A DNA stretch of 64,000 nt from Cystobacter fuscus (GTDB lineage Bacteria; Myxococcota; Myxococcia; Myxococcales; Myxococcaceae). Made by a program: the position numbers and the translations under genes. Shown piece after piece: positions 12,938 through 58,970 of this stretch. The stretch is taken from contig NZ_CP022098.1 of assembly GCF_002305875.1 (NCBI RefSeq), positions 8,556,001-8,620,000 on the forward strand, given 5' to 3'. Position 1 is the first letter of the stretch. Every line of letters starts with the position of its first letter. Below the pieces are notes generated by a model, which was given only the letters and a program-made list of their open reading frames with translations, did not search any database and was not told where the DNA came from.

Positions 12938-14263
12938 TCAGGGCGCCGCGCAGCCCAGGGCCACGGTGGCCGACAGGGGCGTGGCCGTGCGGGTGAGACT
13001 CCTGGGCGTCACCGAGATGTTGGACACCTGGACGGCGCCGCCCTCGGCGTACTCCGTCTTGCCCTCCACGCGCCTGAGGCCGGCGGTGGTGGGGGACTTC
13101 ACGCAGCCCGAGCCCGAGGGGAAGAGCCGCAGGAGAGTGAGCGCCGGGCCATTCAGGGTGAAGGAGAAGGTGGAGCCGTCAGGGCCGGCGGTCGCCTGGA
13201 GCCCTCCGTAGAGCGCTTCCTGGAGGGAGCCGTCGGACGAGAAGCGGGCGAGCACCTGCGAGATGACATTGGAGCCAAGGACACCACTGTTCGCGGTGAA
13301 GGAGATCCACGTGTCCTCACCCGAGGCGACGAGCGAGTGGCCACTGCCGAACTGGAGTGGGGCCTCGGTGGTGCCCGTCGACGTCGGCACCTGCTGGGTC
13401 AGATCCGCGCGGCTCATGGTCCTCGGTTGTCCCTGGGCGTCGAACGTCGCGAGGACGAAGGGGCTGAGCACGGCGACGTTGTCGCTGCGCGTGGAGTTGT
13501 TGCCCAGGCCCACCATCACCGAGCCATCGGCCAGCAGGCGCAGGCCCGAGAGGGAGTGGTTGCCCGGTCCGGGCGAGGCGAAGCTCTTCCACGCCACCTG
13601 TCCGTCCGCGGAGACCTTGGTGAGGCCGATGCCCGACATCCGGCTCTTGGAGTCGAGGGGCACCCCCGCGGCGATGAACGCATCGCCCGCGGCAATCACG
13701 TGCGTGGCGGGGATGCTCTTGGCCCACACGGGCTCGAGCTGTGCGTCCACGCGCAGCAGGTTGCCCCCGGCCAGCAGCAGCCCGCCATCGTCGAGCGGCA
13801 GGGCCCGTCCCGGTGAGAAGCCGGTGTACTCGGCGGCCTGCCGCACCGCGCCCGTGGCCGCGTCGAGCTTCAGCACCCGGAGCGAGCCGGGATAGGTCTC
13901 GCCGGAGATGAGGAAGAGCGCGCCATCCCTGCCCGCCACCAGATGGGTGGGAAGGTCCCGCTCGTCGATGCGTACGACCCACTTGAGCGACATCTTCGCG
14001 TCGAGCCGCAGGACCGCGATGTCGCTGTTGTAGCCCTTGTCGTCGGCCAGGAGCGCCGCCAGCACCACGTCTCCATCCGGCAGCGTGCCGATGGTGCCAT
14101 TGCGGTACTCGACGAAGAAGCGCGTCCCGGTGAGGGTCAGCGTGGCCGCCGTGTTCTCCCGGGGCGGGCCACCGCCTCCTCCGCCGGCACCTCCCGCGCC
14201 GGAGACACCGCACGCCGTCAACAGCGTCAGTACCGCTCCGCACAGCCAGCTCTTTCGCGTCAT
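12938..14263 (-). CDS. Lipoprotein with beta-propeller-like repeats
   Basis: A 441-residue protein. The start at 14263 is chosen because MTRKSWLCGAVLTLLTACG is a lipoprotein leader (lipobox LTAC) with a GGAGAGGG ribosome site before it, although the frame is open further upstream. A Gly-rich linker follows. The body has recurring 'LLADGSVMVGLG', 'LPLDDGGLLLAGG' and 'LPDGDVVLAALLADD' strands, typical of delta-60/beta-propeller proteins of myxobacteria. It is predicted to be anchored in the outer membrane or cell surface. No enzymatic motif is seen. It converges with the MBL-hydrolase gene. Confidence 0.7.
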   Translation of the reverse strand: MTRKSWLCGAVLTLLTACGVSGAGGAGGGGGGPPRENTAATLTLTGTRFFVEYRNGTIGTLPDGDVVLAALLADDKGYNSDIAVLRLDAKMSLKWVVRIDERDLPTHLVAGRDGALFLISGETYPGSLRVLKLDAATGAVRQAAEYTGFSPGRALPLDDGGLLLAGGNLLRVDAQLEPVWAKSIPATHVIAAGDAFIAAGVPLDSKSRMSGIGLTKVSADGQVAWKSFASPGPGNHSLSGLRLLADGSVMVGLGNNSTRSDNVAVLSPFVLATFDAQGQPRTMSRADLTQQVPTSTGTTEAPLQFGSGHSLVASGEDTWISFTANSGVLGSNVISQVLARFSSDGSLQEALYGGLQATAGPDGSTFSFTLNGPALTLLRLFPSGSGCVKSPTTAGLRRVEGKTEYAEGGAVQVSNISVTPRSLTRTATPLSATVALGCAAP

Positions 14264-14457
14264 GGTCCACCCTCTCCTGCGGTCAGGGGAGAATACGTGG
14301 AGAGGCGGAGGGACAAGACCCCCCTCGCTCAGTGCGACGCCTGGGTACCGCTTCCCCTCCTTTCCTCGGAGGTCGCGCCCACCACCCTCCCAGACACGTC
14401 CTCCGCACCCGTAGGACCCGGCGGATATGATTCGCCCCTTTCGAGAGGGAGGAAACC

Positions 14458-15540
14458 GTGGCGGACCTCGCGGACGGGGCCCAGGTGGAGATGAAGGGCT
14501 CGGGAGCCAAGCCGTACATCCTGAAGAACACCGGGGGCGTGTACTCGTGCTCCTGCCCGGCGTGGCGCAACCAGTCGGTAGCCATCGAGCGGCGCACGTG
14601 CAAGCACCTGCGCAAGCTCCGGGGAGACGCGGAAGAGGAGGCGCGCGTGGGCACCACGAACACGGCCCCCGCGGCCCGGACCCCGCTCCGCACCAACGTG
14701 CGTCCCGGCACGAGCACGAGCGAGGACCCGGCCACCGCGCCGCCCGTGCTGCTGGCCCACTCCTGGGAGAACGACGTCGAGCTGACGGGCTGGTGGATGA
14801 GCGAGAAGCTCGACGGCGTGCGCGCGTACTGGGATGGCAAGCGCTTCCTGTCACGGCAGGGCAATCCCTTCTTCGCCCCCGACTGGTTCACCGAGAAGCT
14901 GCCGGACACCCCGCTCGACGGGGAGCTGTTCGGCGGACGCCGCAAGTTCCAGCAGACGGTGAGCATCGTACGGCGACAGGACCGGGGCGAGGGGTGGAAG
15001 AACCTGGCCTTCGTCGTCTTCGACGCCCCGGCCCTGGACGCCCCCTTCGAGGAGCGGCTGGCGCACTGCGAGCGGTATGTGAAGGACGTGTCACCGCCCT
15101 ACACCCAGTGGCTGCCTCACGAGCCCTGCCGGGGCGTGGATCACCTGCGCCAGGAGCTCGCCCGGGTGGAGGGGCTCGGAGGCGAGGGGCTGATGCTGCG
15201 CCAGCCGGGCTCGCGCTACGAGGTGGGCCGCTCGCACACCCTGCTGAAGGTGAAGAGTTTCAAGGACGACGAGGCCCGCGTGGTGGGACACGTGGCGGGC
15301 GCGGGCAAGCACAAGGGCCGCCTGGGCGCGCTGGAGGTGGAGCTGCGCGACGGCACCCGCTTCTCCGTGGGCACCGGCTTCTCGGACGCGGAGCGCAGCA
15401 ACCCCCCCGGCATGGGCACCATCATCACCTTCCGCTACCAGGAGCTGTCCAACGACGGCGTGCCCCGCTTCCCCTCGTACGTGGGGGTGCGCATCGACGC
15501 CGCCCCCTTCACGCCCGTGGCCCGTCCTCCTCGGACGTGA
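14458..15540 (+). CDS. ATP-dependent DNA ligase with N-terminal SWIM-type zinc finger
   Basis: A 360-residue protein starting at GTG 14458 behind GAGGGAGGA. Residues 29-50 contain C31, C33, C48 and H50 in a CxC...CxH arrangement (YSCSCPAWRNQS and RRTCKH), a SWIM zinc finger. Residues about 98-360 are a minimal ATP-dependent ligase: motif I SEKLDGVRAYWDG with K117 as the AMP-accepting lysine, motif III LDGELFGGRRKF, motif IV LGGEGLMLRQPG, motif V LLKVKSF, then an OB-fold domain. The catalytic core is the short Lig E/phage type. The zinc finger may guide it to particular DNA. It seals nicks, perhaps as an accessory repair ligase. No Ku or polymerase is nearby. Confidence 0.85.
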   Translation: MADLADGAQVEMKGSGAKPYILKNTGGVYSCSCPAWRNQSVAIERRTCKHLRKLRGDAEEEARVGTTNTAPAARTPLRTNVRPGTSTSEDPATAPPVLLAHSWENDVELTGWWMSEKLDGVRAYWDGKRFLSRQGNPFFAPDWFTEKLPDTPLDGELFGGRRKFQQTVSIVRRQDRGEGWKNLAFVVFDAPALDAPFEERLAHCERYVKDVSPPYTQWLPHEPCRGVDHLRQELARVEGLGGEGLMLRQPGSRYEVGRSHTLLKVKSFKDDEARVVGHVAGAGKHKGRLGALEVELRDGTRFSVGTGFSDAERSNPPGMGTIITFRYQELSNDGVPRFPSYVGVRIDAAPFTPVARPPRT

Positions 15541-15716
15541 GGATGCTCGAGGCGGTCGACGCTCGCGTGCGGGCCGCCGCCGCCTCGGGCACGAAACCGG
15601 CGTGCCGTGGGTCGTTCCAGGTGCTCCCGAATGGCGTGCACCCCGTCGGGTGCCGTCTGGTACTCCATCACCCACAAAACCAGTTTACCCTGTTTTACTC
15701 TCCGAGTATCCTTCAA

Positions 15717-45231: not shown

Positions 45232-45319
45232 GCCCCCTCCTCTACTACCACTGGCGCGGGGAGGACCAGGGGAAGGGGGCCAGAAGGGCGTCGCCACCGT
45301 GTCGCCCTCGAGAAGGGGC

Positions 45320-45380
45320 GGGGGAGCCTCGCATGAGGCTCCCCCGGGCAATGCCCCCTCGCGTCGGGACGCGACGGGGG
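45320..45380 (-). terminator. Two tandem hairpins ending the 12-kb giant-gene operon
   Basis: Read on the minus strand, a 12-bp hairpin (CCCCC-TCGCGTC with GACGCGA-GGGGG, one bulge) starts directly after the stop codon at 45381. It is followed by a second perfect 11-bp hairpin, GGGGGAGCCTC-loop-GAGGCTCCCCC (45320-45345). There is no strong T tract. Together they probably end the transcript or protect its 3' end. Confidence 0.6.
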
Positions 45381-47333
45381 CTACGGGGTCACTTGTGAGA
45401 AGCGCACCTTTTGCACCCCCTCGATCATCTGCAGGGCGAGGGGTGCGGACGTGTACTCGGAGCGGCTCTGGACGCTCTGCAGCTTCTGGGCGAGCTCACC
45501 CATGTGGATGACGCCGAGCGCTTCGTCCTTCTTCCAGGGGACGGGGAACTGGTGCTCCAGGATTTCACTCCCCGTGTCCCGGTCACGCGGCGTCTTGCGG
45601 AACCTCGGCGCCTCGTTGACGGGCGCATCCACTCCAAAATGCATCGCCTCCGGCTGGAGGTGGATGTCCACCGTCTTCACGTCGCCTTCGAAGAGACACA
45701 GGAGCACGTTGTCGTTCAGCCGCTCCATCCGCGCGAGGTTCAACATCTCATCCGGAGGCTGGAAGGCGTTGTCCTCGATGAGGACGTCATAGCCATCCAC
45801 GAGCAGATCCTTCCAGCCGGAGACCACGGACGAGCGCAGCAGGAAGCCCGTGATCAACCGCTCCGCCTCCTCCAGGGGGCTGGCGCTCCTCCGCCGCAGC
45901 TCCAGACGCCTGTCCGCCTCGGTCACCCGGCCAATGCTGTTGGCGCCATCCAGCAGGCACTTCATCCAGCGCCAGTCCATCCGGAAGAACCGCAGGGACT
46001 CGGCGGGGAGGAGCCGCGCGTCGGGCACCAGGTATTCGAAGGGCACGCCGCGCAGGTCGCGCAGGTCCTCGAACCACTTCCTCACCACCTCGGGTTGCCC
46101 GGGCGGGGTGCGCACACTCCGGAAGGGCATGCGGGACACGCTCCGCGACCGCTGCTCCTCCTGGCGCTGCGCGAGCCGGCCCGTGCGCTTCCATTGGTAG
46201 AGAGCGAGGGAGACCGCCTGGTTCTGCAGTGTCAGCCGGCGCCCGAGCTCCCAGGCCGAAGCATAGGAGACGTCGAACATGCCGGTCCGCGCCTCGTAGC
46301 GCAGCAACTCGTCCGCGGCCAGGGCGGGCAATGCCACCGGCTCCTGCACGTCGCCGGGGCTCAGGGGGCCGTGGTACCACGAGACCGTCTTGTCACCCTG
46401 GCGAAGGGCGTGCGGCAGGGGGATGCATCCCCGGGCGAGATACGGAGCCGCTTCGGTCTCGACCGCCTCGGTCAGCCTGAGCGTGCTCGGCTCCCGCTTC
46501 ACCTTCGAGAGCAGCGCGGTGAAGCTCTGGTCCGGATCCAGGCACGAGAAGCTCCACCGCTTCAGGCTCACGAGGCGGATCAGCGCCTCTTCGCCAGCAC
46601 TTCCGAAATCGAACTCCTCGGAGTCTTGATGGTAGCGACCCTCCACGGAGACCAGATAGGCCGTGCTGGTTCCGCCCTCTTGGGGCAGACGATTGCAGAG
46701 CACGGTCGCATGGGTATTGGTGCTGGCCGACGGGTCTTCTTTCTTCATGCCCTTGAGCTGGCGCACGTGGGCCAGATAACCCAGCTCGCTCTTCTTGGGC
46801 AGCACCGCCTCGAGCAGCCGCCGCTTCACCTCGATCACGCTCACGCTGTCGTCCGGGTCCTGCCCCACCTCCTCCTCGAAGGGGGGGAACGTGGCCCCAG
46901 GAGCCGACGCCAGCTCCCGCAGCGGGAGGATGCGCTCGACCGGTTTGTCCTCGGGCGAGCTGAAATCCGACTCCCGGAACAGCAGGAGGGCGAGCCACGG
47001 GAGATTGGGATCCTCGTTGTCGGGCGAGCGCTCCCAGGGCAGTGTGCTGCGGGTCAGCGTGATGTGGGGCAGGACATTCAGATGGTCACCCAGGCTTCCC
47101 TCGGGCGGGAAGACGCCGGCCACATCGCTCGGTGCGAGCGCGGTGAAGCGCTCTCCCGTGACCACGAAGGTGAGGCTGCGCTCCCAGGTGGCTGGCGTGG
47201 AGACCTTGTCGCTCTGGAGCGTCTGGAGCGACTGCGTCAGGTCCACGCGGTAGGTGCCGCTGTCGAGCGGGGGCTGGTGATACTGGATGAACTCGACGAG
47301 CGGGGCGGTGTCGGTGCGGGTCTTTCCAGTCAT
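45381..47333 (-). CDS. Large protein of unknown function, last gene of the giant-gene operon
   Basis: A 650-residue protein with a GAGGAATCC ribosome site, no signal peptide and no membrane segment. I recognise no domain. It reads as a mixed alpha/beta protein: LVEFIQYHQPPLDSGTYRVD at the N-terminus, then VFPPEGSLGDHLNVLPHITL, SWYHGPLSPGDVQEPVALP and LRFFRMDWRWMKCLLDGAN. The stretch of Arg/Trp around residues 400-480 could bind a partner. It follows the DUF6603-type gene by 28 bp, and tandem hairpins follow its stop. Its function must be linked to the same complex. Confidence 0.65.
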   Translation of the reverse strand: MTGKTRTDTAPLVEFIQYHQPPLDSGTYRVDLTQSLQTLQSDKVSTPATWERSLTFVVTGERFTALAPSDVAGVFPPEGSLGDHLNVLPHITLTRSTLPWERSPDNEDPNLPWLALLLFRESDFSSPEDKPVERILPLRELASAPGATFPPFEEEVGQDPDDSVSVIEVKRRLLEAVLPKKSELGYLAHVRQLKGMKKEDPSASTNTHATVLCNRLPQEGGTSTAYLVSVEGRYHQDSEEFDFGSAGEEALIRLVSLKRWSFSCLDPDQSFTALLSKVKREPSTLRLTEAVETEAAPYLARGCIPLPHALRQGDKTVSWYHGPLSPGDVQEPVALPALAADELLRYEARTGMFDVSYASAWELGRRLTLQNQAVSLALYQWKRTGRLAQRQEEQRSRSVSRMPFRSVRTPPGQPEVVRKWFEDLRDLRGVPFEYLVPDARLLPAESLRFFRMDWRWMKCLLDGANSIGRVTEADRRLELRRRSASPLEEAERLITGFLLRSSVVSGWKDLLVDGYDVLIEDNAFQPPDEMLNLARMERLNDNVLLCLFEGDVKTVDIHLQPEAMHFGVDAPVNEAPRFRKTPRDRDTGSEILEHQFPVPWKKDEALGVIHMGELAQKLQSVQSRSEYTSAPLALQMIEGVQKVRFSQVTP

Positions 47334-47361
47334 GATCGGATTCCTCGAAGGGATGGGCGGC

Positions 47362-50300
47362 TCACTGGACCTGGGGAGCCACGACGAAGGTTTGTGCGAG
47401 TGATTCCGGATCGAGCGACACGTCCCGCTCGGGATCGAATCCCAGTCCCTTCAGGAGCTGATCACGGAGGTCATTCCGTCCCACCGTCTCGCGCAGCCGC
47501 TCACGGCGCGCCGCATCGTCTCCGCTGATGGGCTGGAACGCGGCGATGGGCTCCCACTGGAAGGCGTCTGGAATGGGGGTCGTGTCGTAGCGCAGCACAT
47601 CCGTGCGGATGTTCTCGGTATGGCCGGGTGCGGGCTGTGCCTTGATCTGGACGTCAAAGCATGTCACCACGCCTTCCACGAAGCCCGGCTCGTCCGCGGT
47701 GGGAGGAAGCACCCGATCCTCGGAGGCCGTCTTGGCCGTGCCCCACACCGCGGAGGGGACCTTGCGCGTCATCGGCGTGAACGTGAACCAGTCCGTCACG
47801 TCCAGCTCTCCATCGTCCGTGAGCTTCGTGACCCGGAGCCACTGCTCCGTCTCGAGATCGTCTGGCATGACCGCCATGGGACGGATGCCGAAGGCCCCCT
47901 GGGCACCTCCCATGCCGATCTCCTGCCTCCCCTCCCCCTGGACGGCCTTCTTCGTGGGGACGAAGGCATCCGTGGTGAGCGCGAAGTCCTTGGGGTTGAC
48001 CACCCAGAGATCCTCCGCCCCCTTCTGCAGCCGCCGCAGCAACCCGTTCGTCACCCCCAGGGTGCAGATCTCCTCCCCCGGAGGCAGGAATCCGCTCTGG
48101 AAGTCCTCCCAGCCAATGGCCTTGGGATGGACGCTGCCCTGGTCTCCGAACTCGATGGTGAAGGAGAACAGGGTGACGTCGATCTCCGCGTAGCCGCCGA
48201 AATCCGGTCCCCACAGCCGCAGGGCGGCCGACACGTCGACATCTCCGAGGAAGCCGAAACCGGCGCTGATGCTCACCCGGAGTTCGATGTCGTAATGGTA
48301 GGGCTTCCAGCTGATCAGGAAGTCGGCGCCAGCACGGAAGGTGGCGTGCGCATCCCCCGACTCGAAGCTGACTTCCAGCGAGCCGCCCGCCATCACCGCG
48401 TGCGCACAGAGCGCGAAGTAGCCTCCTCCCTTGATGATGGCCACATCGCCCAGGCGCCAGTTGAAGCCCAACCGCGGCACCAGCGGGTAATGGTCGGGGA
48501 CGGGGAATCGCGGGTGGTAGCCGCCGGCGGTGATCACGAAGTCGCCCGCGTGCGGCCCCGCCAACCACGTGTAGAAGGCATAGCCTCCCGTGAGCTTGCA
48601 GTCCTTGGACAGGATGTAGGAGGACGGCGTGAGCTGGGCGATGACGCCCAGGAAGCCCTCCTCGGGGATGAAGGAGGCCTTCAACGCCAGCTCTATCTGC
48701 GCGATGGGGTCCACGCCCGAGTTGGCCGCCCCGAAGGGGATGCTCAGGTTGGCGAGCCCGAGCACGTGCACCTCGAAGCGCTCGCCCAGCTTGACCGTGA
48801 GCAGGGCGAACCCCGACAGCAGCTTGAACGAGGTGAACTTCACCCCCACGGCCAGGAAGCCATCTCCCACGCTGGGCGTGAGATAGGTGGACAGCAGGGC
48901 GACCTTCTCCTGGAGGAGCGCCGCCCGGCTGTTCGCGTCACCGATGTCGTTCTGCCCGCTGAGCGCCTCCCGGACCAGGGGGAAGTCCTTGATCTTGTCC
49001 ACCGTGGGAATCGTCAGCGCCCGGTTGACGCCAAAGCCCGCGGACAGCCCCTCCACGAAGAAGAAGGGCGGCCCGCCCAGGGGCACGCCCAGCACGGCAT
49101 AGAGGAACAGCGAGGGCTCGCCCTGGAACTGCGCGTAGCCGCCAATCGCGCTGAGCGAGATGGCCCGGCCGCCCATCTTCGCCTTGAGCAGCGCCAGGCC
49201 GTCGTAGCTCTCGACCTTCTCGCCCTCCACCTCCATCTCGCGGCGCAGGAGGGTGCCGCCAATCTCCAGATTGGGCGTGCGGTAGTCGAGCGCCAGGCCC
49301 TCGAGGTGGAAGCGGGGCGGCGAGCTCATCGTCACCGGCGCGCTCACGGACAGTCCGGACAGGCCCAGGGACAGCGGCCCCAGGGCAAGGGACGCGTCGA
49401 GCAACAGCCACAACTCGCCCGCGTCGAACTTCACCCCCACGCGCTCCAGACTCACCGGGCCCACGGCCTTCTGGAGCGAGAACCACTGGGGCTCCATGCC
49501 GCTCCGGGTTCCGGGACCCTCGACGATCTGACCGTTGTCGCTCACCTGGACCGGGACGTTGATGGGCAGCGTGAGGTCGCCGATCTGGAGCTCTCCCCGC
49601 AGCGTCACCCCCTGGGGGAGCACTTCCTTGCCCAGGGGCACGCCCTGGGCCTCGAACAGGGGGATGAGGGCGTTCACCTCGGGCTGGGTGAGCGCGGCGG
49701 AGGCCACCATGATCCGGTAGGTCAGTTTCACCCCGTCTTCTGGCGTGAAGTTCTGACCCACCAGGGGAAGCTGCGACAGATCCAGACCCGCGCCGACCTC
49801 CACGCCAAAGAGCCGCCTGGCCGTCAGGGACGTGGGCGGCTGCTGCCACGAGGCGAAGAGCGCGTGGTTCACCTGGAGGGTGAGCCCGTCGGGGATGAGC
49901 GCGGCGAAGTCTTGCGAGATGCCCTCGACCATCTTCCGCAGGCTCGTGCTCTCACCCTCGGGGTTGGAGAAGCCCGCGAGCAGCGTCTTGCCGAGCGGCG
50001 CCGGCAGGTTGGGACGCGAGTCGATGGCGAGCTTCCCCGTGGACGCCCACTCGCTGAGGACGGAGAGATTCTTCGTGGTGTTGTCGAGCGTGACCGAGAG
50101 GTCCTCGAGGACCAGCTCCTCGATGAACCGTGGCATGGGGATGCCCAGCTTGCCGGTCAGGTCCCCAACGAGGGCTCCAATCTCCACCTGCTCGTCCTCC
50201 GCCAGCCCGCCCTCGAAGACCCAATGGGTCGCGGTGGGATTGGCGGAGGTGCCTCCCCCCGAGCGGCTCGCCGAGACCACGAACTCCTTGTCCGCGAGCG

Positions 50301-51087
50301 CGAAGGAGCCGTGGATCTCCACCTCGGGCCGGTTGACCCCCTCCTTCGACATGTCGAGGCCGAGCCCGGTCAGGGTCACGAGCCCCGGCACCACTTCCCA
50401 CTCCTGCGCGATCTCCGCCGCGAAGGAATAGCTCTGCTCGCGGGGTTGGATGATGGCCTCCAGCCCCGTGAGCGTGAACGTGGACGGGTCACCGCTCTCC
50501 GGCAGGATGCCCGCGAGCAGCGACGAGAGCGGCGCCGTCTGTCCCTCGGGCAGGGCAACGGCGACATTCATGGAGGGCAGCGCCACCCCGGCCTTCAGCA
50601 GGATCTCATCGTCGAGCTTGAGTGTGCTCCGGGCCTCGCAGAACACCTGGCGTGTCAGGGGATCCGACGGCGACTTCACCGTGATGGAGAAGAACAGCTC
50701 CTCCAGGGCGAACTGCCCGTCGATGATCTGCCAGGGCTCGGCGGATTGGAGCTCCAGGGTGACCGAGCTGACCTGGCGGGTGGGATTCTGCTCGAGGATG
50801 AGCTCGAACCCCTGGAGGGCGATGACGTTGGCCAGGGGAACCTGGGCGGGGATGATGTCCAGGCTCACACCGCCCACGAGCTGGGTCAGGGCATCCAGCT
50901 CCGTCAGCCGGATGCCATCCAGCTCCGCGGTGACGACGAGGGGCGAGGTGTCTCCTCCTCCCTCGGCGAGCTCGCCCTTCAAGACGAGGACCTTGCCGCC
51001 ATCGGCCGTCTCGAGCTCGAACTCGAGGCCGTCACCGAGCAGGGCGGCAATCCCTTCATTGGTCAGCAAGTCATCCAGCAATGCCAT
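47362..51087 (-). CDS. DUF6603-type giant beta-rich protein
   Basis: A 1,241-residue protein; start at 51087 chosen because GAGG sits 6 bases before it. No signal peptide. The whole length is built of alternating strands with short Gly/Pro turns. The middle part (LDYRTPNLEIGGTLLRRE, GVPLGGPPFFFVEGLSAGF, NRALTIPTVDKIKDFPLVRE) and the following LTPSSYILSKDCKLTGGYAF then GHPRFPVPDHYP-like region are what I know as DUF6603, a family of unknown function in bacteria with large accessory clusters. AGVALPSMNVAVALPEGQ-like segments recur in the N-terminal half. It may be a long beta-groove or tube protein. It lies in the five-gene operon next to the fibre-like protein. Confidence 0.7.
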   Translation of the reverse strand: MALLDDLLTNEGIAALLGDGLEFELETADGGKVLVLKGELAEGGGDTSPLVVTAELDGIRLTELDALTQLVGGVSLDIIPAQVPLANVIALQGFELILEQNPTRQVSSVTLELQSAEPWQIIDGQFALEELFFSITVKSPSDPLTRQVFCEARSTLKLDDEILLKAGVALPSMNVAVALPEGQTAPLSSLLAGILPESGDPSTFTLTGLEAIIQPREQSYSFAAEIAQEWEVVPGLVTLTGLGLDMSKEGVNRPEVEIHGSFALADKEFVVSASRSGGGTSANPTATHWVFEGGLAEDEQVEIGALVGDLTGKLGIPMPRFIEELVLEDLSVTLDNTTKNLSVLSEWASTGKLAIDSRPNLPAPLGKTLLAGFSNPEGESTSLRKMVEGISQDFAALIPDGLTLQVNHALFASWQQPPTSLTARRLFGVEVGAGLDLSQLPLVGQNFTPEDGVKLTYRIMVASAALTQPEVNALIPLFEAQGVPLGKEVLPQGVTLRGELQIGDLTLPINVPVQVSDNGQIVEGPGTRSGMEPQWFSLQKAVGPVSLERVGVKFDAGELWLLLDASLALGPLSLGLSGLSVSAPVTMSSPPRFHLEGLALDYRTPNLEIGGTLLRREMEVEGEKVESYDGLALLKAKMGGRAISLSAIGGYAQFQGEPSLFLYAVLGVPLGGPPFFFVEGLSAGFGVNRALTIPTVDKIKDFPLVREALSGQNDIGDANSRAALLQEKVALLSTYLTPSVGDGFLAVGVKFTSFKLLSGFALLTVKLGERFEVHVLGLANLSIPFGAANSGVDPIAQIELALKASFIPEEGFLGVIAQLTPSSYILSKDCKLTGGYAFYTWLAGPHAGDFVITAGGYHPRFPVPDHYPLVPRLGFNWRLGDVAIIKGGGYFALCAHAVMAGGSLEVSFESGDAHATFRAGADFLISWKPYHYDIELRVSISAGFGFLGDVDVSAALRLWGPDFGGYAEIDVTLFSFTIEFGDQGSVHPKAIGWEDFQSGFLPPGEEICTLGVTNGLLRRLQKGAEDLWVVNPKDFALTTDAFVPTKKAVQGEGRQEIGMGGAQGAFGIRPMAVMPDDLETEQWLRVTKLTDDGELDVTDWFTFTPMTRKVPSAVWGTAKTASEDRVLPPTADEPGFVEGVVTCFDVQIKAQPAPGHTENIRTDVLRYDTTPIPDAFQWEPIAAFQPISGDDAARRERLRETVGRNDLRDQLLKGLGFDPERDVSLDPESLAQTFVVAPQVQ

Positions 51088-51153
51088 GGCCATCCTCGCC
51101 CTGCTCAAGGTGTTCACGCGCCGGTCCGTGTTCCGGCGGGTTTGCATCTCATC

Positions 51154-53388
51154 TCAATAGGAATAGTCGCCGGTGATGAGGGCGCGCCGGATCGCGATGA
51201 CATGGACACGCCAGTCGTCACTGACCCGCACCACGTCAGCGAAGATGTGCCAGGTGGTGCCGCTCACCTTGGGGTAGCAGTTGAAGGAGATATCCTTGTC
51301 AGCGCTGTCATCGTCGGCATTGAGATAGAATCCAGCGACGAAGACCACCCACTCGTCTTTGGAGAAGCCGGTATTACCGCTGGCGGCGCCTCTGTTCACG
51401 GTGATGGACTTGCACTGGAATGGCGCCTCCCCCTTGAGCAGGAGCTTACCGTCGGTCTTCAGGGTCAGCTCAGGAGTCGTGGTGTGGTTGTTCGTGAAGA
51501 AATGAAGGTCATGATTCGACCTGGTGCCGAACCATCCGCCCTTGTCGCTCACATAGGTGGTGAGCGTCCGGGTGCCGTCGGTATGGCTGAGACCGTGCGC
51601 ACCCGCACCCGTCTTCACCTGGAGGGGGTAATCGGGTGCATACGTGCCAATGCCCACGTTGCCACTGGTCTTCAGCGTCAGCTGGGGCTCGGTCTTGTTG
51701 TTGGCGAAGAAATGGAGATCGTGATTCGACCTGGTGCCGAACCATCCGCCATCATTGTTCACATAGGTGGTGAGCGTCCGGGTGCCGTCGGTATGGCTGA
51801 GCCCGTGCTCGCCCGTGCCCGTCTTCACCTGGAGGGGATAATCGGGTGCGTTCGTGCCAATGCCCACCTTGCCCTCGGTCGTCAGCGTCATCTGGGCAAG
51901 CGAGTTGTTCGTGAAGAAGTTGAGCTTGTGCTCCGAGAGCGTACCGATTCCGCCTCCAGGCGATCCCACACGGGTCGCGAGGACATGGGTTCCGTCCGTG
52001 TGGCTGAGCCCGCTGGAATTGCTGTCCGTTCGCACCTCGAGGGGGTGGTTGGGCGCACTCGTGCCGATGCCCACCCTGCCATCGGTCTTCAACGTCATCG
52101 CGGGGGATGAGACGCTGTTGTTCGTGTAGAACAAGAGGTCATGGTTCGTCTGGGTTCCAAACCCGGCCGCTCGGGTGCTGGAGGTCCCACGCAGCCGTGT
52201 GGACAGCTTGACCGTTCCATCCGAGTGGGTGATGCCATACGCATCCTCAGCGGTCTCCACCGTCAGCTTGTTGGTCGGGATGCCGGTGCCGATGCCGACC
52301 ATCTGGTCCGCGAACTTCAAGGGCTGCTTCTGGATGAACGCCACGCGCTCACCGTCGCTGTAGCCGGTCAGCCCGCCGTAGCGAACGAGCAGCGCCGAGC
52401 GGCCCGTGGCGTGGCCCGTCTTGACCTTCGAGATGGGCACCTCGATCGCCATCCCCTTGTCCAGGGTGGTGTTGCCGGGCTTGGGCGTGAGCGTCCACTC
52501 CCCCAACTGGTTGGGCCCCTCCACGTTCCAGAGGGCGTGGCCGGGCCAGTCCGGGTCCGTTCCAGTGTGGTCTGGCTTGCCCGGGATGAGGATGCTGGAC
52601 ACCTGGGAGGACGTCCCCAGGGCCCAGAGGTGCGAGGTGTCCTCGCTGGACTCGAAGCGGACGGTGAAGCGGCTCACCGACTCCCCGCCCGTGCCAGGCG
52701 TCAGGAGGATGGGGACCAGGCCCGTGTTGACGATGCGCAGCACCAGGTGGTTGTCGGTATGTCCATCATTCAGGACGATGTTGGAGCTGCTGAACTCCGC
52801 CTCCAGGGAGGGAGCCGACGCGCCGCCCATGCTCATGTTGATGAGGCCGAGGTCGGAGTTCTCGGTGCGGTTGTACTCGTCATCCGGTCCGCTGAGCGTC
52901 ACGTAGGTCTCGTATCGGTGCAGGATGAGCTGGGCGAGCGTGGGCCGCGTGCCCTTTCCGGCGACCGCCCCCACCTTCTTCAAGGTCAGCGCCAGGGGAG
53001 TGCTGGGCTTCACCTCCAGCGGCGCTGCGCCCTTGTAGAGGACATACAGATAGACGTCGCCCAGCGCGTACTCGTCAGCCGAGGTCGGAACACGCTTCTC
53101 GATCTCACAGAGCAGTCCCCACTGTCCGTCATGAGAGGCGTCGAGGAGGAGCTCCTCGGGTCGCACGAGCGTGTCGGGACGGAAGGTGAGCTTGAAATGG
53201 TGGTTGGAGCTGCTCACCACCATGTCGCTCACGTTCTTGAGCGTCATGGTGACGCCAGAGTGGGGCTTGGATTCGATCTCGAGGGTGTCGCTCTCCTCTG
53301 GAGACTCGTTGATGAACAGGACGTTGGTGAGCGTGTCGCTCGAGTCCGGGAGGGGAAGGTTGAATTGGAACGCGAATGCCTGGGCCAT
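51154..53388 (-). CDS. Tail-fibre-like protein with four tandem repeats
   Basis: A 744-residue protein with an AGAGGAAGC ribosome site. Residues 1 to about 350 form beta-rich domains (AFAFQFNLPLPDSSDTLTNV, then many VTMTLKNVSDMVV-like strands). From about residue 358, four repeats of 69-75 residues begin with VGIGTxxPxxxLxV, the hallmark of phage and bacterial tail-fibre stalks, each with SHTDGT, GTRSNHDLHFF and LTLKT. A different C-terminal domain (residues about 645-744, HIFADVVRVSDDWRVHVIAI) would be the tip. No S74 peptidase motif is seen. It is probably trimeric, and fits an adhesive or target-binding subunit. Confidence 0.75.
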   Translation of the reverse strand: MAQAFAFQFNLPLPDSSDTLTNVLFINESPEESDTLEIESKPHSGVTMTLKNVSDMVVSSSNHHFKLTFRPDTLVRPEELLLDASHDGQWGLLCEIEKRVPTSADEYALGDVYLYVLYKGAAPLEVKPSTPLALTLKKVGAVAGKGTRPTLAQLILHRYETYVTLSGPDDEYNRTENSDLGLINMSMGGASAPSLEAEFSSSNIVLNDGHTDNHLVLRIVNTGLVPILLTPGTGGESVSRFTVRFESSEDTSHLWALGTSSQVSSILIPGKPDHTGTDPDWPGHALWNVEGPNQLGEWTLTPKPGNTTLDKGMAIEVPISKVKTGHATGRSALLVRYGGLTGYSDGERVAFIQKQPLKFADQMVGIGTGIPTNKLTVETAEDAYGITHSDGTVKLSTRLRGTSSTRAAGFGTQTNHDLLFYTNNSVSSPAMTLKTDGRVGIGTSAPNHPLEVRTDSNSSGLSHTDGTHVLATRVGSPGGGIGTLSEHKLNFFTNNSLAQMTLTTEGKVGIGTNAPDYPLQVKTGTGEHGLSHTDGTRTLTTYVNNDGGWFGTRSNHDLHFFANNKTEPQLTLKTSGNVGIGTYAPDYPLQVKTGAGAHGLSHTDGTRTLTTYVSDKGGWFGTRSNHDLHFFTNNHTTTPELTLKTDGKLLLKGEAPFQCKSITVNRGAASGNTGFSKDEWVVFVAGFYLNADDDSADKDISFNCYPKVSGTTWHIFADVVRVSDDWRVHVIAIRRALITGDYSY
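51455..52312 (-). repeat. Four tandem fibre repeats, period near 210 bp
   Basis: Two adjacent units are almost identical at the DNA level: GATTCGACCTGGTGCCGAAC occurs at 51513 and again at 51723, a 210-bp period (70 codons). The outer two units have diverged. Recent duplication by unequal recombination is likely, so the copy number may vary between strains. Confidence 0.8.
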
Positions 53389-53400
53389 GATGGGCTTCCT

Positions 53401-53589
53401 CTAGCTGTGAGCGGGTCCAGCGGGGGCCGTCGTCTCGGAGGCCGAGATCTGGGCCGCGGCCTGTTGCTGGATGCGGCCAATGAGCTGGAAGACACGCGCG
53501 TAGGGCTGCCTTCCGAGCGCCTCCAGGACCTGGTTGATCTCCGCCACGCTCAACGTGAGCTGGAGCGGTTTGTTCGTGTCATGCGCCAT
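53401..53589 (-). CDS. Small protein of a type found in phage tail modules
   Basis: A 62-residue protein from the ATG at 53589. It overlaps the end of the 1,382-residue gene by 11 bp and ends 12 bp before the fibre-like gene. It reads LQLTLSVAEINQVLEALGRQ, PYARVFQLIGRIQQQAAAQI, then an Ala/Thr/Ser tail. The pattern 'L.VaE.N.vL.aLG..Py..vf.LI..IQqQa' is one I associate with small proteins beside tail-fibre genes in phages. This is recalled, not searched. It may be a chaperone or an assembly factor for the fibre. Confidence 0.65.
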   Translation of the reverse strand: MAHDTNKPLQLTLSVAEINQVLEALGRQPYARVFQLIGRIQQQAAAQISASETTAPAGPAHS

Positions 53590-56500
53590 GGTTGTTGGAG
53601 CCTCCAGGAGGTGTTTCACGCGAGAGCTTCAGCCAGCCCTCGGCGAGTTGCAGGGCGTCCGGCATCCGGGCGCGCGTCTCCGCCGGAGTCAGCGCCCGCG
53701 TCTCCTCCCACAGGCCGCGCTGCCGGGACACCCAGGACCAGGTGAAGCCGGGCTGCTCGGGTACCGGCACGCTCACCGCGCGCTCGCCGCCGGCCTTGCC
53801 GTAGGCGGCCCGGCCCGTCAGCAGCGGCGCGGAGGTGAACGTCACCTCGAGCGACGCGAGCGCCTTCTCGTACTGCTCGGGGGGAATCCGGATCGACTTG
53901 GCCGGCACGATGCTGCTGGTCGCGTGGACCTCGCCTCGCGGATCCACGAGCATGGTCAGGACTTGAGCCGGTGCGCTCACCGTCTGGGGGATCTCCACCG
54001 CCCTGTTTCCCGAGGCGGTGACGATCGAGCGCCCGGCGGGGTCGGTGCCGGAGAAGCCCGCGTGCTCGCTCTGGGGCGCATAGAAGGTGCCGTTCTCGAA
54101 GCGGCCATCCGCCTGCTCCTTCCAGTAGCCGAGGAGGCCGTCGTTGAACTGGCGGAACTCGCCGATGCGGATGGGCAGCTCCACCTGATCGAAGCCCAGC
54201 GTCCACGACTCGGGGCTCTGGGAGATGGGCGTGGGCGCCTCCCCGTCCTGGTATTGCGCGAGGGTCTCGTTGAAGACCCGCCAACGCTTGTCACGCGCCG
54301 GCAGTCCGTGGAGCTCCAGGTCCACCGACGCCCGGACCACGGCCAGGGGGCGTCCAATCAGGAGCGAGAGCGAGGGGCTGTGGGAGAGCGCCTCCGGGTC
54401 GCTCTGGTCCAGGGCGGCGTTGAGCACCGTGCCAAACGCCTTCGTGTAGTCCTGGCCCGCCCTGCCGGCGGACGTGAGGTGATCGACCACCTTGCGCAGG
54501 TGGGGGTTCTCGATGGCCTCCACGGCCACGGGATGGGTCGTGCCGGGGAAGGGATCCCAATACCCCGCCGCGTTGATGACCCCCAGCGGGGTGCCCGAGG
54601 TGGCGTACACCATCAGGCCACCGTCGAAGTTGTTGGGGATGAGCCAGCCACAGATGGGGCTCGTCGCCGGATGCGCGTTCATCTCCGGCTGGTCCTCGCC
54701 CTCCAGGGGCATGCCCGACAGCCACCGGAACTGGATGCGCGAGGGCTGGGCGAGCCGTGGCGCGAGCAGCACCCGGTGGTCATTCTCGCCGCGATCCCTC
54801 AGGGGCATCAGCTCGGAGGACACGATCGTCGTGCCCCCCTCGTCGGGCCGGGCGTCCAGGTCGTTGAGCTGTCCGAACGTGTCCACCAGGCGCAGGCCGG
54901 TGATGCGCAGCTCTCCACCGCGGAAGGGATTGAAGTCGCGCTTCGGGGTGGACGCCAGGAGCAGGGCGCCGCGGACCGTCCCCGCCACCTGCGAGGCGAA
55001 GAGGCGGTGGTCGTCGAAGCCGATGGGCTCCTCGATGTCGAGCTGCAGTGTGCGCTTTTGCATCAGGAGCGCGTCGTTGAAGCCATTGAGGGCCTGGGAG
55101 AGGATGTGCTCTTGCTGGGACTGGAGCGTCACGTAGGCCCTGAGCGCCGTGCGGAGCGTGTCGTCCTCCTGTCCCGGCTCGGGCTGATAGCCGGAGAGCA
55201 GGGCCTGGGCGTTGCCGTTCGTGTCGAGGTATTGCTCGGCCTGCGCCGCGGTGAGTCCATACAGGGCTTTCTGGTGGCTCTCCTCCGACAGGAGCAGCCG
55301 CTGCTTGACCACGTACGAGGCGATCCGCTGCTTCAGCGTCCCGCTCGTGTGCGCGCTCAGGATGCTGAACCCCCGATAGGGCTCCGAGTTGGTGACGACG
55401 TCATCGGTGTTGTCCGGCTCCCGGCGCGCCAGGTCCACCGCCTCGGGGGCGCGCACATAGCGGCGGGTGATGTGGTCTGGCGGGTAGGCGTCACGGCCAT
55501 CCACCTTGGGAACGGGGTGCGGGAAGAACTGGACGTCCCACTCCAGCAGGAAGGGGTTCCAGGGCTGCTGGGTCCAGGTGGTGAAGCCCGCGCGCTCGCC
55601 GGACTGGGAGGCGGGTGAGGCGTCGATGAGCTGTCGAATGCGGCCCAGGAGCGCGTCCTCCAGCGGCAGGCGGTCGAGGCTCTCGTCGGAGACGCCCTCG
55701 AGGAGCTGGCACGCCAGCAGACCGTCCTTCTGGAGCCGGCCGTCGCGGCCATGCCGGACACCGCGCGAGAGCGACTCGCCATGCATCAAGACGACCGGAT
55801 CATTGGGCTGCCAGTAGCGGGGACCGGGGATGGCCCTGAGGGCGCATGGGGGGGTGAGTCCCCATACGCGCCGCTGGAGCGCATCCATCGCACGCTGCAA
55901 GCGCGCCGCGAGCTGCTCCGCGAAGGGGGGGATGTCGAGGCTGATCAACCCCTTCTCGATTCGAATCACATACGTCCGCCCCCCGTCGGTGATGTTCCAC
56001 ACCCTCCCCTCGCCTTCCTCGCCGCCCTCCGCCACCACCTTCACGGTCGCGCTCGAGGAGAGCGTGATGCCGAAGTTCTTGAACTCCTTGGCCCAATGGC
56101 TGGAGGAGGCGCTGATGTAGCTGGCGTCGAGATCCTCCCGGTACTCCCGGAAGTATTGCGTCGAGCCGGCATTGACGAGGCCGAAGCGCAGCGTCTCGGG
56201 CGCTCCCACCACCTGTTGCGTGTTCCGGGGTTGCTTCCACCCGAGTTTGCCCGTCGCGAGCAGGTGCTTGCGGAGGGTGGCGAGCCCGTTGGCGCGCAGG
56301 GTCTGCATCGCGTCCGAGAGGTCCTCGGCGTCGGTGGGCTGGTCCTCGCCCATCTGGTCGCCGATCGCCTCGGGGTGGGTGGCGTAGATGAACTTGTGCC
56401 AGTCATTGAAGAGCCGCGCGCTCATGGACGCCGTGGCCTCGTTCGCCCGGTCATACGCGCCCTGGAGCTGGTTGAGCTCGCTGAGCAGGTGGGCCACGTC

Positions 56501-57727
56501 GTCCGGGAGGGTGACCTCCTCTCCCTCGGTGTCGCTCGCGGGATTGGCGCGTTGGATGGACCAGAGGGTGCCACCGGCACGGGCCGTGAAGCCCCGCTCG
56601 TGGCGCGCCTCGTGGAACTTCTCGTCCACGTCGAGCTGGAGCTGGTCGAGCTGATCCGTGAACTCGAGGGCGTCGAGTTGTCGCGCGACATCGCGCCGCG
56701 TGTCGGGTTCCTCCGCGAGCTGGTGGGCCAGATAGGCGGAGAGGGCCTCGGTGCCGGTGTCACCCACCGACAGGGTGAGCGTCTTCTGGCTGGCGGCGGC
56801 GTTGCTCCGGGTGGGCCCCTGGAACGTGAGCCGCGCGTGGCAGACGGTCCGGCGGGGGAGCGCGGCCTTACCCAGGTCCACCTGCCACCGGAAGCGTTGT
56901 TCGAAGTCCTGGCGGACCCGGATGCGATCCGTCTCGGATTGGTGCTGGTGGTAGAAGTCCTTCAAGACATCATCGTCGGGCCGGTCATACCAGCCGAGGA
57001 CGTCGTAGCTGACACCGGACGGGTCGGCGCCCAGCGCGGCGTCCGGGTCGTGGAAGCCGAACACGCTGAAGCAGCCCGGGTAGAAGGCCGCGAACGAGGC
57101 CTTCACATGGTCGAGTGAAGCGTGCCACTCGAGTGGCCCCATGGCCGTGAGCGCGAGCTCGTACTGGCGCAGGTACTCGCCCGAGCTTCCGGAGGATTGC
57201 CAGTCCGTGACCTGCATCGCGCGTCCGATGTGCCGGAAGGGTTGGTAGGGCCCCTCCTTCAGCCGGGTGCGCGGAAAGGGAATGATGGCGGCGACGGGCT
57301 GCTCCTGCTGCGGACGCTGGACCGTCAGATCCGGGTAGAGGTAATCACTCTCGACGACCCACTGCCGCTCCACGCTGGTGCCCCGGAGGCGGCGGACCAG
57401 CCAGCGGTTGGGGACCATGGGAAAGCGATGCCGTCCGGAGAGATCCGACTGGGTGCTGCGAGTCAGCGTGTCGGGCAGGGCCCAGTGCAAGTGGATGCCT
57501 GGCGCGAGTTCCTGGAAGGTGGGCGAGAAGGGCTGGGAGAGGATGTTCTCGCTGATGTTCGCCCGGTCATTGCTGTGGCCGTAGTCGCCATCCGCTTTCT
57601 TGTAGGTGAAGGGGAGCCGGGTGTACTGCGCGAGTGCTTCGCGGACGGGCGTGGGGCTGGACAGACAGAGCGCGTCCAGGTGCATGGGGACGAGAAGGAC
57701 ATTGGGGGTCGTCGGCTCTCCAGCCAT
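53579..57727 (-). CDS. Giant protein of unknown function, first gene of the operon
   Basis: A 1,382-residue protein with an excellent AAAGGAG ribosome site before the ATG at 57727. No signal peptide or membrane helix. No domain is recognised. Features seen: a conserved-looking N-terminus (VLLVPMHLDALCLSS, IHLHWALPDTLTRS, MVPNRWLVRRLRG), a helical, charged middle (FTDQLDQLQLDVDEKFHEAR, LLSELNQLQGAYDRANE), and a beta-rich C-terminal third (GGELRITGLRLVDTFGQLND, ICGWLIPNNFDGGLMVYATS, LDLELHGLPARDKRW-like). LPDTLTRS and the PNRWLVRR strand near the N-terminus look like structural rather than enzymatic motifs. It is probably the large scaffold of an unknown assembly. Confidence 0.7.
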   Translation of the reverse strand: MAGEPTTPNVLLVPMHLDALCLSSPTPVREALAQYTRLPFTYKKADGDYGHSNDRANISENILSQPFSPTFQELAPGIHLHWALPDTLTRSTQSDLSGRHRFPMVPNRWLVRRLRGTSVERQWVVESDYLYPDLTVQRPQQEQPVAAIIPFPRTRLKEGPYQPFRHIGRAMQVTDWQSSGSSGEYLRQYELALTAMGPLEWHASLDHVKASFAAFYPGCFSVFGFHDPDAALGADPSGVSYDVLGWYDRPDDDVLKDFYHQHQSETDRIRVRQDFEQRFRWQVDLGKAALPRRTVCHARLTFQGPTRSNAAASQKTLTLSVGDTGTEALSAYLAHQLAEEPDTRRDVARQLDALEFTDQLDQLQLDVDEKFHEARHERGFTARAGGTLWSIQRANPASDTEGEEVTLPDDVAHLLSELNQLQGAYDRANEATASMSARLFNDWHKFIYATHPEAIGDQMGEDQPTDAEDLSDAMQTLRANGLATLRKHLLATGKLGWKQPRNTQQVVGAPETLRFGLVNAGSTQYFREYREDLDASYISASSSHWAKEFKNFGITLSSSATVKVVAEGGEEGEGRVWNITDGGRTYVIRIEKGLISLDIPPFAEQLAARLQRAMDALQRRVWGLTPPCALRAIPGPRYWQPNDPVVLMHGESLSRGVRHGRDGRLQKDGLLACQLLEGVSDESLDRLPLEDALLGRIRQLIDASPASQSGERAGFTTWTQQPWNPFLLEWDVQFFPHPVPKVDGRDAYPPDHITRRYVRAPEAVDLARREPDNTDDVVTNSEPYRGFSILSAHTSGTLKQRIASYVVKQRLLLSEESHQKALYGLTAAQAEQYLDTNGNAQALLSGYQPEPGQEDDTLRTALRAYVTLQSQQEHILSQALNGFNDALLMQKRTLQLDIEEPIGFDDHRLFASQVAGTVRGALLLASTPKRDFNPFRGGELRITGLRLVDTFGQLNDLDARPDEGGTTIVSSELMPLRDRGENDHRVLLAPRLAQPSRIQFRWLSGMPLEGEDQPEMNAHPATSPICGWLIPNNFDGGLMVYATSGTPLGVINAAGYWDPFPGTTHPVAVEAIENPHLRKVVDHLTSAGRAGQDYTKAFGTVLNAALDQSDPEALSHSPSLSLLIGRPLAVVRASVDLELHGLPARDKRWRVFNETLAQYQDGEAPTPISQSPESWTLGFDQVELPIRIGEFRQFNDGLLGYWKEQADGRFENGTFYAPQSEHAGFSGTDPAGRSIVTASGNRAVEIPQTVSAPAQVLTMLVDPRGEVHATSSIVPAKSIRIPPEQYEKALASLEVTFTSAPLLTGRAAYGKAGGERAVSVPVPEQPGFTWSWVSRQRGLWEETRALTPAETRARMPDALQLAEGWLKLSRETPPGGSNNHGA

Positions 57728-58298
57728 GGCGATGCTCCTTTGGAAGGACGTTTGACGATAGGTGTCGGACGACGACTGCGTGTACTCGTCTTGCGCTGTC
57801 TTCCCTTGCCGGGAGAGCCCGTATAACTGTCTGGTTCGAATTCGGGGGATAAGCGTTTTGCTGAATTGACAAGAAAGCAGGGATGTGCTGGGCGCGCCTC
57901 CCCGTCACCGGCCGAAACTGTCCGTGCTCGGCGAGCGGACGGATGGGGCGCTCCGCGAACAGCCAGGGGTAGCGGGCCCGCTCCTGACGACGGGAATCAC
58001 TGCGATTCGCATGTCTTTCCTCACGGCTCGAGAAGCAGGAGGATGTCTCGACATTCGTACCAGGTGAGAATGGCCCGAGGTCCATCAGGTTTGCATGTTT
58101 GGGAGAAGCCGATGGGTCTGATCTGGAAGGCGGCGTCAGCTTACTTCAGCAGGGCCTGAGCCCGCTCGGTTCGCAGAGCAATGGGCCGAGCCGGTGGAGT
58201 TGGAGATGGCGCCCCTGCCGTGCTGGAAAGGACTGGGGGAGGTACGATGCCCGCTGAAGGAACGAGGCGACGCGAGCCGTCTGGGCTTACCAGTCGTG
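57728..58298. other. 571-bp stretch without a supported gene; holds the giant-operon promoter
   Basis: No open frame here looks like a protein. The part at 57815-57875 is AT-richer than its surroundings and probably contains the minus-strand promoter of the operon; TTGTCA and TTATCC/TTATAC elements can be found there, but no pair is convincing. The remainder shows nothing definite. Confidence 0.4.
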
Positions 58299-58544
58299 CT
58301 AGAGTTCGTCCCAGAAAGCGGAGTCGGCCAAGAAGAGGCCGCATCTTGCTAGAATGATCTCGTTCTCCAACGCGGACTGAAGCTGCTGGTACAAAAGTGG
58401 ATCATCGGGGAATTTCTCTGAAGCTTCGCGCGCAAGCACCGGGTCTCTACAGAGTTCCTCGAACTTCGCGGCGTCACGTCCTGCCTCGGCGCGAATCGCC
58501 TTGATTTTCTCGGAGAACCACACAGCACTCTCGACGGTTTTCAT
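58299..58544 (-). CDS. Small soluble protein of unknown function
   Basis: An 81-residue protein starting MKTVESAVWFSEKIKAIRAE, then KFEELCRDPVLAREASEKFP and ALENEIILARCGLF. It is mostly helical and acidic. Its ATG overlaps the stop of the preceding small frame (ATGA at 58541-58544), which argues for a real coupled pair. No family is recognised. The pair's GC content is near 50-55%, lower than its neighbours. Confidence 0.55.
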   Translation of the reverse strand: MKTVESAVWFSEKIKAIRAEAGRDAAKFEELCRDPVLAREASEKFPDDPLLYQQLQSALENEIILARCGLFLADSAFWDEL

Positions 58545-58720
58545 TTGGGTTTCGCGCCTTTGAACTGCTTCTCGAGTGCGGAGATTATGTTTCTATAGAG
58601 CAGCTCAATCTGCGGCAAACTACGAAAGGACTCACAAAGCCTCGACTGCCAAAAAAAGACAGCATCGACCTCACGGCGCCGCGCCTCAATAGGTTGGAGG
58701 AAGTACTCGCGAGTTTGGCG
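58541..58720 (-). CDS. Small coupled ORF of unknown function, start unclear
   Basis: The C-terminal part reads EARRREVDAVFFWQSRLCES then LLYRNIISALEKQFKGAKPK, a protein-like, low-GC segment. Its stop overlaps the next start (ATGA). No good ATG or GTG lies in frame near the expected beginning, and a run of seven T's sits in the coding strand near 58655. Either a rare start is used or there is an indel in the run. The coordinates of the 5' end are therefore approximate. Confidence 0.4.
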   Translation of the reverse strand, partial: RQTREYFLQPIEARRREVDAVFFWQSRLCESFRSLPQIELLYRNIISALEKQFKGAKPK

Positions 58721-58889
58721 AGCGGTCGATGGGCGCGGTTTGCTCGCCCGGCTGGCCCACCATGGGTGCCCCCGCTCCCGCGGGGACGTACCGGGGAACA
58801 GGCACTGGGATGGACGGAGCTGGAGCCACTGCCTGGGCATGAACCGCCGTGGCGACCAACATGCCGAGCCCCATAACACGGAAGGTCAT
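58686..58889 (-). CDS. Small exported proline-rich protein
   Basis: A 67-residue frame starting MTFRVMGLGMLVATAVHAQA, which is a signal peptide, followed by a Pro/Val/Ala-rich mature part (PAPSIPVPVPRYVPAGAGAP) and the end RSPNSRVLPPTY. The mature protein is about 48 residues. It overlaps the beginning of the next small ORF. No function is known. Confidence 0.5.
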   Translation of the reverse strand: MTFRVMGLGMLVATAVHAQAVAPAPSIPVPVPRYVPAGAGAPMVGQPGEQTAPIDRSPNSRVLPPTY

Positions 58890-58970
58890 TCCGAAGACTC
58901 CTACTCGAAACGTCAGCAGAGATGCTCGGCGAGTTGCACCGGGTACTGCGCCACCGGCTCATGGGACGGC

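Follow-up and report, generated by a model that had tools for sequence, protein, structure and literature searches.

A five-gene cassette of Cystobacter fuscus joins a conserved trio of giant proteins to an exchangeable fiber and may encode a target-recognition assembly

The stretch of Cystobacter fuscus DNA analyzed here, which we call the window, spans 64,000 nucleotides (positions 8,556,001 to 8,620,000 of contig NZ_CP022098.1, a 12.35-Mb single-contig genome labeled G000; below, G-numbers denote genomes and L-numbers extracted loci) and carries a cassette of five minus-strand genes arranged as A-B-C-D-E. Gene A (53579..57727) encodes a core protein of 1,382 residues without a recognized fold, and gene B (53401..53589) a small accessory protein of 62 residues from its ATG or 72 from an upstream GTG at 53619. 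Gene C (51154..53388) encodes a 744-residue fiber with a base of about residues 1-363, four VGIG shaft repeats of about 70 residues and a C-terminal tip. Gene D (47362..51147) encodes a DUF6603 protein of 1,261 residues from its first ATG, or 1,243 or 1,241 from two internal ATGs, and gene E (45381..47333), directly 3' of D, a further core protein without a recognized fold, of 650 residues. By these coordinates A overlaps B by 11 bp, whereas B and C are 12 bp apart, C and D 6 bp and D and E 28 bp. A preliminary description of this locus had listed five minus-strand genes with short gaps or overlaps, and all of the open reading frames were found where it had placed them; its sizes are all possible, those of B and D depending on the start chosen. 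It had also given each gene its own ribosome site, which holds for A, B (at the 62-residue start), C and E, all preceded by Shine-Dalgarno-like stretches, but only in weaker form for D. In line with its statement that no signal peptide is present, no N-terminal hydrophobic signal stands out in the five window proteins, judged by hydropathy only. A promoter and terminator scan scored no better on this DNA than on shuffled sequence.

The third-position GC of the five genes (0.82-0.90), the retention of all five in the near relative G092 and the dN/dS of 0.16-0.22 for A, D, E and the C base between the window and G092 indicate that these reading frames are more than chance. When the five proteins were compared with Pfam, PHROGs, NCBIfam and PADLOC, significant matches appeared only to DUF6603 for D and to tail-fiber PHROGs for C. 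The DUF6603 likeness proposed earlier for one protein proved to be clear membership, as D matches PF20248 over residues 558-1055 (E 1.5e-132, 443 bits against a cut-off of 27); the D family match begins near residue 19, and D is the sole DUF6603 match in its genome. A matches no family of Pfam, PHROGs or PADLOC at E<=1, its best NCBIfam match is at chance level (E 0.23), and its best scores against PDB sequences, E 0.42 as a single sequence and 0.071 as a profile, are not significant. E has no Pfam family above the cut-off (best E 0.11) and matches PDB sequences neither as a single sequence at E<=1 nor convincingly as a profile (best 0.59), and the D profile found nothing significant among PDB sequences. 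Profile comparison detected no internal repeats in A or E and a weak signal in the N-terminal part of D (probability 31%). The alignment of the A family (19 members) holds 48 invariant columns.

Loci were extracted and the family profiles were placed on all of their reading frames, with three S. clavuligerus records counted as one locus. A, D and E lie together on one strand in 21 of the 25 loci that hold any A, and the remaining four are either broken or truncated at the end of a contig: P. sonchi has E and a split A without D, G094 keeps just a fragment of A, L024 has incomplete copies of A and D together with E, and G139 holds A and the first part of C before its contig ends. Every tabulated locus has its matches on a single strand, with E adjoining D; E is split in two pieces in L032 and L059. 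The trio was joined from neighboring stretches in three loci (L081+L086, L083+L087 and L052+L088), with about 4.9 kb between C and D in the second of these. Twelve of the 21 trio loci are ordered A-(B)-C-(X)-D-E and nine (X)-D-E-A, where X and a protein Y that follows A in most of the nine are taken up below; C is absent from this second order. The preliminary description had treated the five genes as a unit and named as one refutation that they be conserved together in no other genome. This refutation fails, since the trio persists as a unit in 21 loci, whereas C varies in tip and copy number and B is present in five loci among those examined, those of the window, G092, G121, G195 and G227, standing before C in four and after C in G121.

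The carriers are scattered over distant bacteria. Of 195 genomes from the window's phylum, 11 carry A and 14 carry DUF6603 (13 above the cut-off), with nine genomes holding both. In the cyanobacterial phylum, that of a Westiellopsis, three of 244 drawn genomes hold A, two of the three being previously found carriers, and a D scan of genome contigs led to three cyanobacterial loci. Across 72,556 plasmid records A and E match the identical eight, namely Streptomyces 4 (three of them S. clavuligerus), Embleya 2 and Paenibacillus 2, and D matches nine, seven of them shared with those eight. Named carriers thus include cyanobacteria, Streptomyces/Embleya and Paenibacillus, the others being genomes of the window's phylum.

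The divergence of the three families is congruent: over 19 loci the identity matrices correlate at 0.970 for A-D, 0.932 for A-E and 0.947 for D-E, and none of 2,000 permutations reached such values. The cassette occupies a variable slot (window 45313-58960). Within the same genus, G092 (locus L090) has the five genes in the same slot as the window, with about 16 kb of extra genes on the far side, and G091 (locus L089) keeps both flanks with other DNA between them, including a 1,040-residue open reading frame. In G093, G062 and G066 the cassette sits elsewhere in the genome than the flanking sequence. From these slot differences we infer that gain, loss and relocation affect the cassette as a whole. 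In L052 the complete A and C are preceded, immediately upstream, by a C-terminal piece of A that has a C of its own (13132-15716), which suggests that A-C units were duplicated in tandem or exchanged.

C had been described as a repeat-built fiber, and its matches bear this out. Its best PHROGs are tail fibers (4.1e-13 and 1.5e-11), followed by one family without assigned function (3.5e-5), and the VGIG repeats of the shaft begin at residues 364, 439, 508 and 578, two adjacent repeats being 86% identical in DNA. Matches of C by tblastn occur in nine phage records and are confined to residues 339-606. As a profile of 11 proteins, C has as its top four PDB matches 8ond (1.9e-6), 8oml (3.5e-5), 8ol4 (4.6e-4) and 8ojn (0.017), entries that hold C-terminal parts only and correspond to Bd2133, Bd1334, Bd2439 and Bd3182, MAT fibers of Bdellovibrio (PMC10769870). 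The tip domains change from one relative to the next: 11 scanned C proteins gave Collar in five, Gp10_C in four and LamG in two, with none of these in the window's C, and five further ones gave S74 in L081, LamG in L083 and nothing in three. Two C copies are present in G062, in G066 and in one Microcystis locus. When the window is compared with G092, C diverges faster in its shaft and tip (dN 0.093, dN/dS 0.52) than in its base (dN 0.016, dN/dS 0.21). In the wider comparison, C after residue 363 is as similar as the base or more so in 9 of 28 genome pairs, and the tip is thus not always the less conserved part.

In the loci of the other order, eight Y proteins were scanned against Pfam: PLAT, F5/8C and S74 occur in one each, a further one shows only a weak LacZ_4 match, and four have no Pfam family. 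X lies upstream of D in six loci and has a metallo-beta-lactamase fold, with three of five scanned members above the Pfam cut-off. It bears the motifs TH.D.DH (varied in two members) and HHGS, which we take to be typical of ComEC/Rec2-type metallo-hydrolases. Between C and X of Microcystis locus L022 (4323-7496) small open reading frames lie inside the cassette; judged by eye, these resemble two near-identical MNT-type nucleotidyltransferases, a HEPN-like partner and Uma2-like nucleases.

A sister cassette was found in six further loci, where D-E is followed by a protein A2 and, in five of them, by a protein F. Its carriers are plasmids of Natrinema (L029, 2053-18063) and S. europaeiscabiei (L030) and four genomes from the window's phylum (L061-L064), one of these genomes having E on either side of D; L063 is cut before the expected F. 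The Natrinema plasmid is haloarchaeal, and D-E-A2-F thus reaches archaea. On the S. europaeiscabiei plasmid the cassette sits between annotated tyrosine recombinases and a DUF6262 gene (L030, 1-1001 and 18040-22194). Profile comparison detected no relation of A2 and F to A or C, and when all families were compared pairwise by hhalign no relation appeared, A against A2 included, and only C against Y stood out weakly. Among 30 scanned members of A, A2 and E, four PHROG and four Pfam families were each matched by a single member, so that no family-wide assignment can be made. The strongest PHROG (1.8e-11) has no assigned function, another (4e-7) is a "virion structural protein", and the Pfam families include LamG, PhoD and DUF7800; the A2 of L064 has a LamG domain. 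Transmembrane-like segments (KD19 >= 1.8, by hydropathy) are found in 0 of 23 A, 0 of 15 C, 1 of 28 E and 8 of 26 D members, which suggests that D might touch membranes in some carriers. By these searches the trio A-D-E appears to fit no family or system matched here. What is new is that A and E have no recognized relative, although a known fold may yet underlie these proteins, and that the trio is unnamed.

Our best explanation, to which we give about an even chance, is that the operon encodes a modular target-recognition assembly in which A, D and E form a scaffold displaying an exchangeable fiber. The conserved scaffold would be made in the cytosol without classical export signals, and C, probably a trimeric fiber, would dock on it through its N-terminal base, leaving shaft and tip to bind a surface, probably a glycan. 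Cassettes would trade and duplicate their tips, as happens with phage tail fibers and MAT fibers, and some cassettes would add the hydrolase X. Such an assembly could reach the cell surface or the exterior through lysis or another route and be used in contact with other cells, in predation, competition or attachment. The cassette may therefore be an undescribed device for recognizing and holding other cells or surfaces. Variants of this reading as a weapon and as an adhesin cannot be told apart from sequence. A bolder version, which we hold only tentatively and regard as doubtful, makes A-D-E with its exchangeable fiber a new class of particle, non-contractile and assembled in the cytosol for recognition or attack, whose scaffold is unrelated to phage tails and which has spread horizontally among several bacterial phyla by way of plasmids and islands, with the sister D-E-A2-F reaching archaea.

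Several observations weigh against the scaffold-and-fiber explanation. The correlated divergence of A, D and E is also expected from simple block inheritance, and dS too is raised in the C tip (0.18 vs 0.07), so that recombination or repeat misalignment may contribute partly to its faster divergence. Only three of the eight scanned Y proteins carry a binding or fiber-type domain, the C base and Y are related at a weak hhalign probability of 14-16% (E about 0.002), and in Paenibacillus polymyxa A is followed by a Pfam-less protein and a PLD-like protein, with no fiber. The support comes from sequence; the AlphaFold2 models of E (mean pLDDT 34.1) and D (residues 62-1261, 31.0), each built on an alignment of four sequences, are unusable. 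None of the five window proteins shows a signal that would point to an export route.

Other accounts of the cassette read the same evidence differently. The trio could be part of a released or injected toxin-delivery particle, aimed by C or Y and loaded with hydrolases as cargo, which would work like Tc complexes and extracellular contractile injection systems (eCIS) without belonging to either. The X proteins with their two motifs upstream of D in six loci, the PLD-like gene after A in P. polymyxa and the PhoD-like domain in one of the 30 A, A2 and E members would supply such cargo, but X may have nothing to do with delivery, the window cassette and most others have no recognizable toxin or enzyme, and no sheath, tube or pore family occurs in the five window proteins; we consider this account rather unlikely. 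On the P. polymyxa plasmid, baseplate-V proteins and a GH-E nuclease are annotated about 7-12 kb upstream of the cassette (L025, 1-5379). If the device is no weapon, the cassette might instead act passively, as an adhesin or matrix system that mediates attachment, aggregation or the recognition of kin. LamG, F5/8C, PLAT and Collar are binding domains, and the patchy set of carriers includes Microcystis and Streptomyces, neither of which is, to our knowledge, known mainly as a predator. The window proteins, however, lack visible adhesin-type export signals, and a patchy, plasmid-borne pattern with fast tip change is equally expected from antagonism, which leaves this account unlikely in our judgment.

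The phage-type shaft of C, the Collar and S74 domains of its relatives and the two A, A2 and E members with a strong PHROG match would also fit what is left of an unusual phage or tailocin that was domesticated and lost its remaining genes. Against this, the other members of the 30 have no strong PHROG match, and distant taxa keep the trio without phage genes. A phage origin of A and D was rejected, as neither matched any of 50,697 phage records at E 1e-5 and no relative emerged when viral contigs were scanned with patterns of A, D and E (for E the sole phage test). The remnant account is thus quite improbable. Nor did the searches lend statistical support to the earlier likening of B to a small phage tail-module protein: its best PHROG has E 0.21 and its best phage tblastn match E 2, and two of its three chance-level phage matches adjoin tail-fiber or holin annotations. 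Very improbable, finally, is an intracellular defense system in which C-like proteins sense parts of phages or plasmids and X acts as a nuclease effector. It would account for the variable recognition part and the patchy, plasmid-borne occurrence, and one cassette has an annotated CHAT/CATRA conflict system about 7 kb upstream. Yet fiber shafts and Collar or S74 domains are typical of surface binding and not of known sensors, and with no PADLOC family at E<=1 in the five proteins a known anti-phage defense system was rejected.

The preliminary description had also called the operon undescribed, and at the level of search results the literature searched yielded no paper naming DUF6603 or PF20248 and none describing the cassette. 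Three giant families inherited together in distant bacteria, without a described function, point to an overlooked multi-protein device. As a weapon or predation device, it would be of a kind independent of the contractile phage tail; as an adhesin, it would be a surface system that spans phyla and is produced without classical signals. Among known systems, eCIS and tailocins are similar multi-gene cassettes with a fiber component and no signal peptides. The cassette differs in that sheath, tube, baseplate and ATPase families were recognized by Pfam, PHROGs and NCBIfam in none of its five proteins (its flanking genes were not scanned), and the sole PF04984 sheath match of the genome (G000:C1:5553493-5553906, inside an open frame of 734 residues) is about 3 Mb away. 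The identity of a standard contractile injection system was rejected on these grounds, as the preliminary description had concluded. Tc toxin complexes are marked by a pore-forming TcA and by SpvB and RHS domains, and Tc-type Pfam families occur neither in the five proteins nor in the 30 A, A2 and E members. Phage tail fibers (PHROG 18345 and 9942; Collar, PF07484; S74, PF13884) share shaft repeats and tip domains with C and its relatives, whereas the C base is unmatched in phages and no phage homologue was found for A or D.

The MAT fibers of Bdellovibrio bacteriovorus resemble C in a related shaft sequence, the trimeric state of C being a prediction from sequence, and in having a conserved base, diversified tips and an S74 chaperone at some tips (PMC10769870). 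MAT proteins begin with a signal peptide followed by a conserved domain of about 130 residues (PMC10769870). C fails the first of these features, as it has no N-terminal hydrophobic segment by hydropathy; its base is of about 363 residues, it is tied to A-D-E, some of its relatives end in Collar, and the passages of PMC10769870 drawn on here name no A-D-E partners for MAT. The working logic that we propose, a receptor-binding fiber module on a conserved scaffold, would be comparable to that of phage tail fibers and MAT fibers. For DUF6603 itself, a family without a described function of which D is a clear member, the comparison adds a gene context of A, E and C, and the coupling to MAT-like or phage-like fibers gives a first functional handle on the family.

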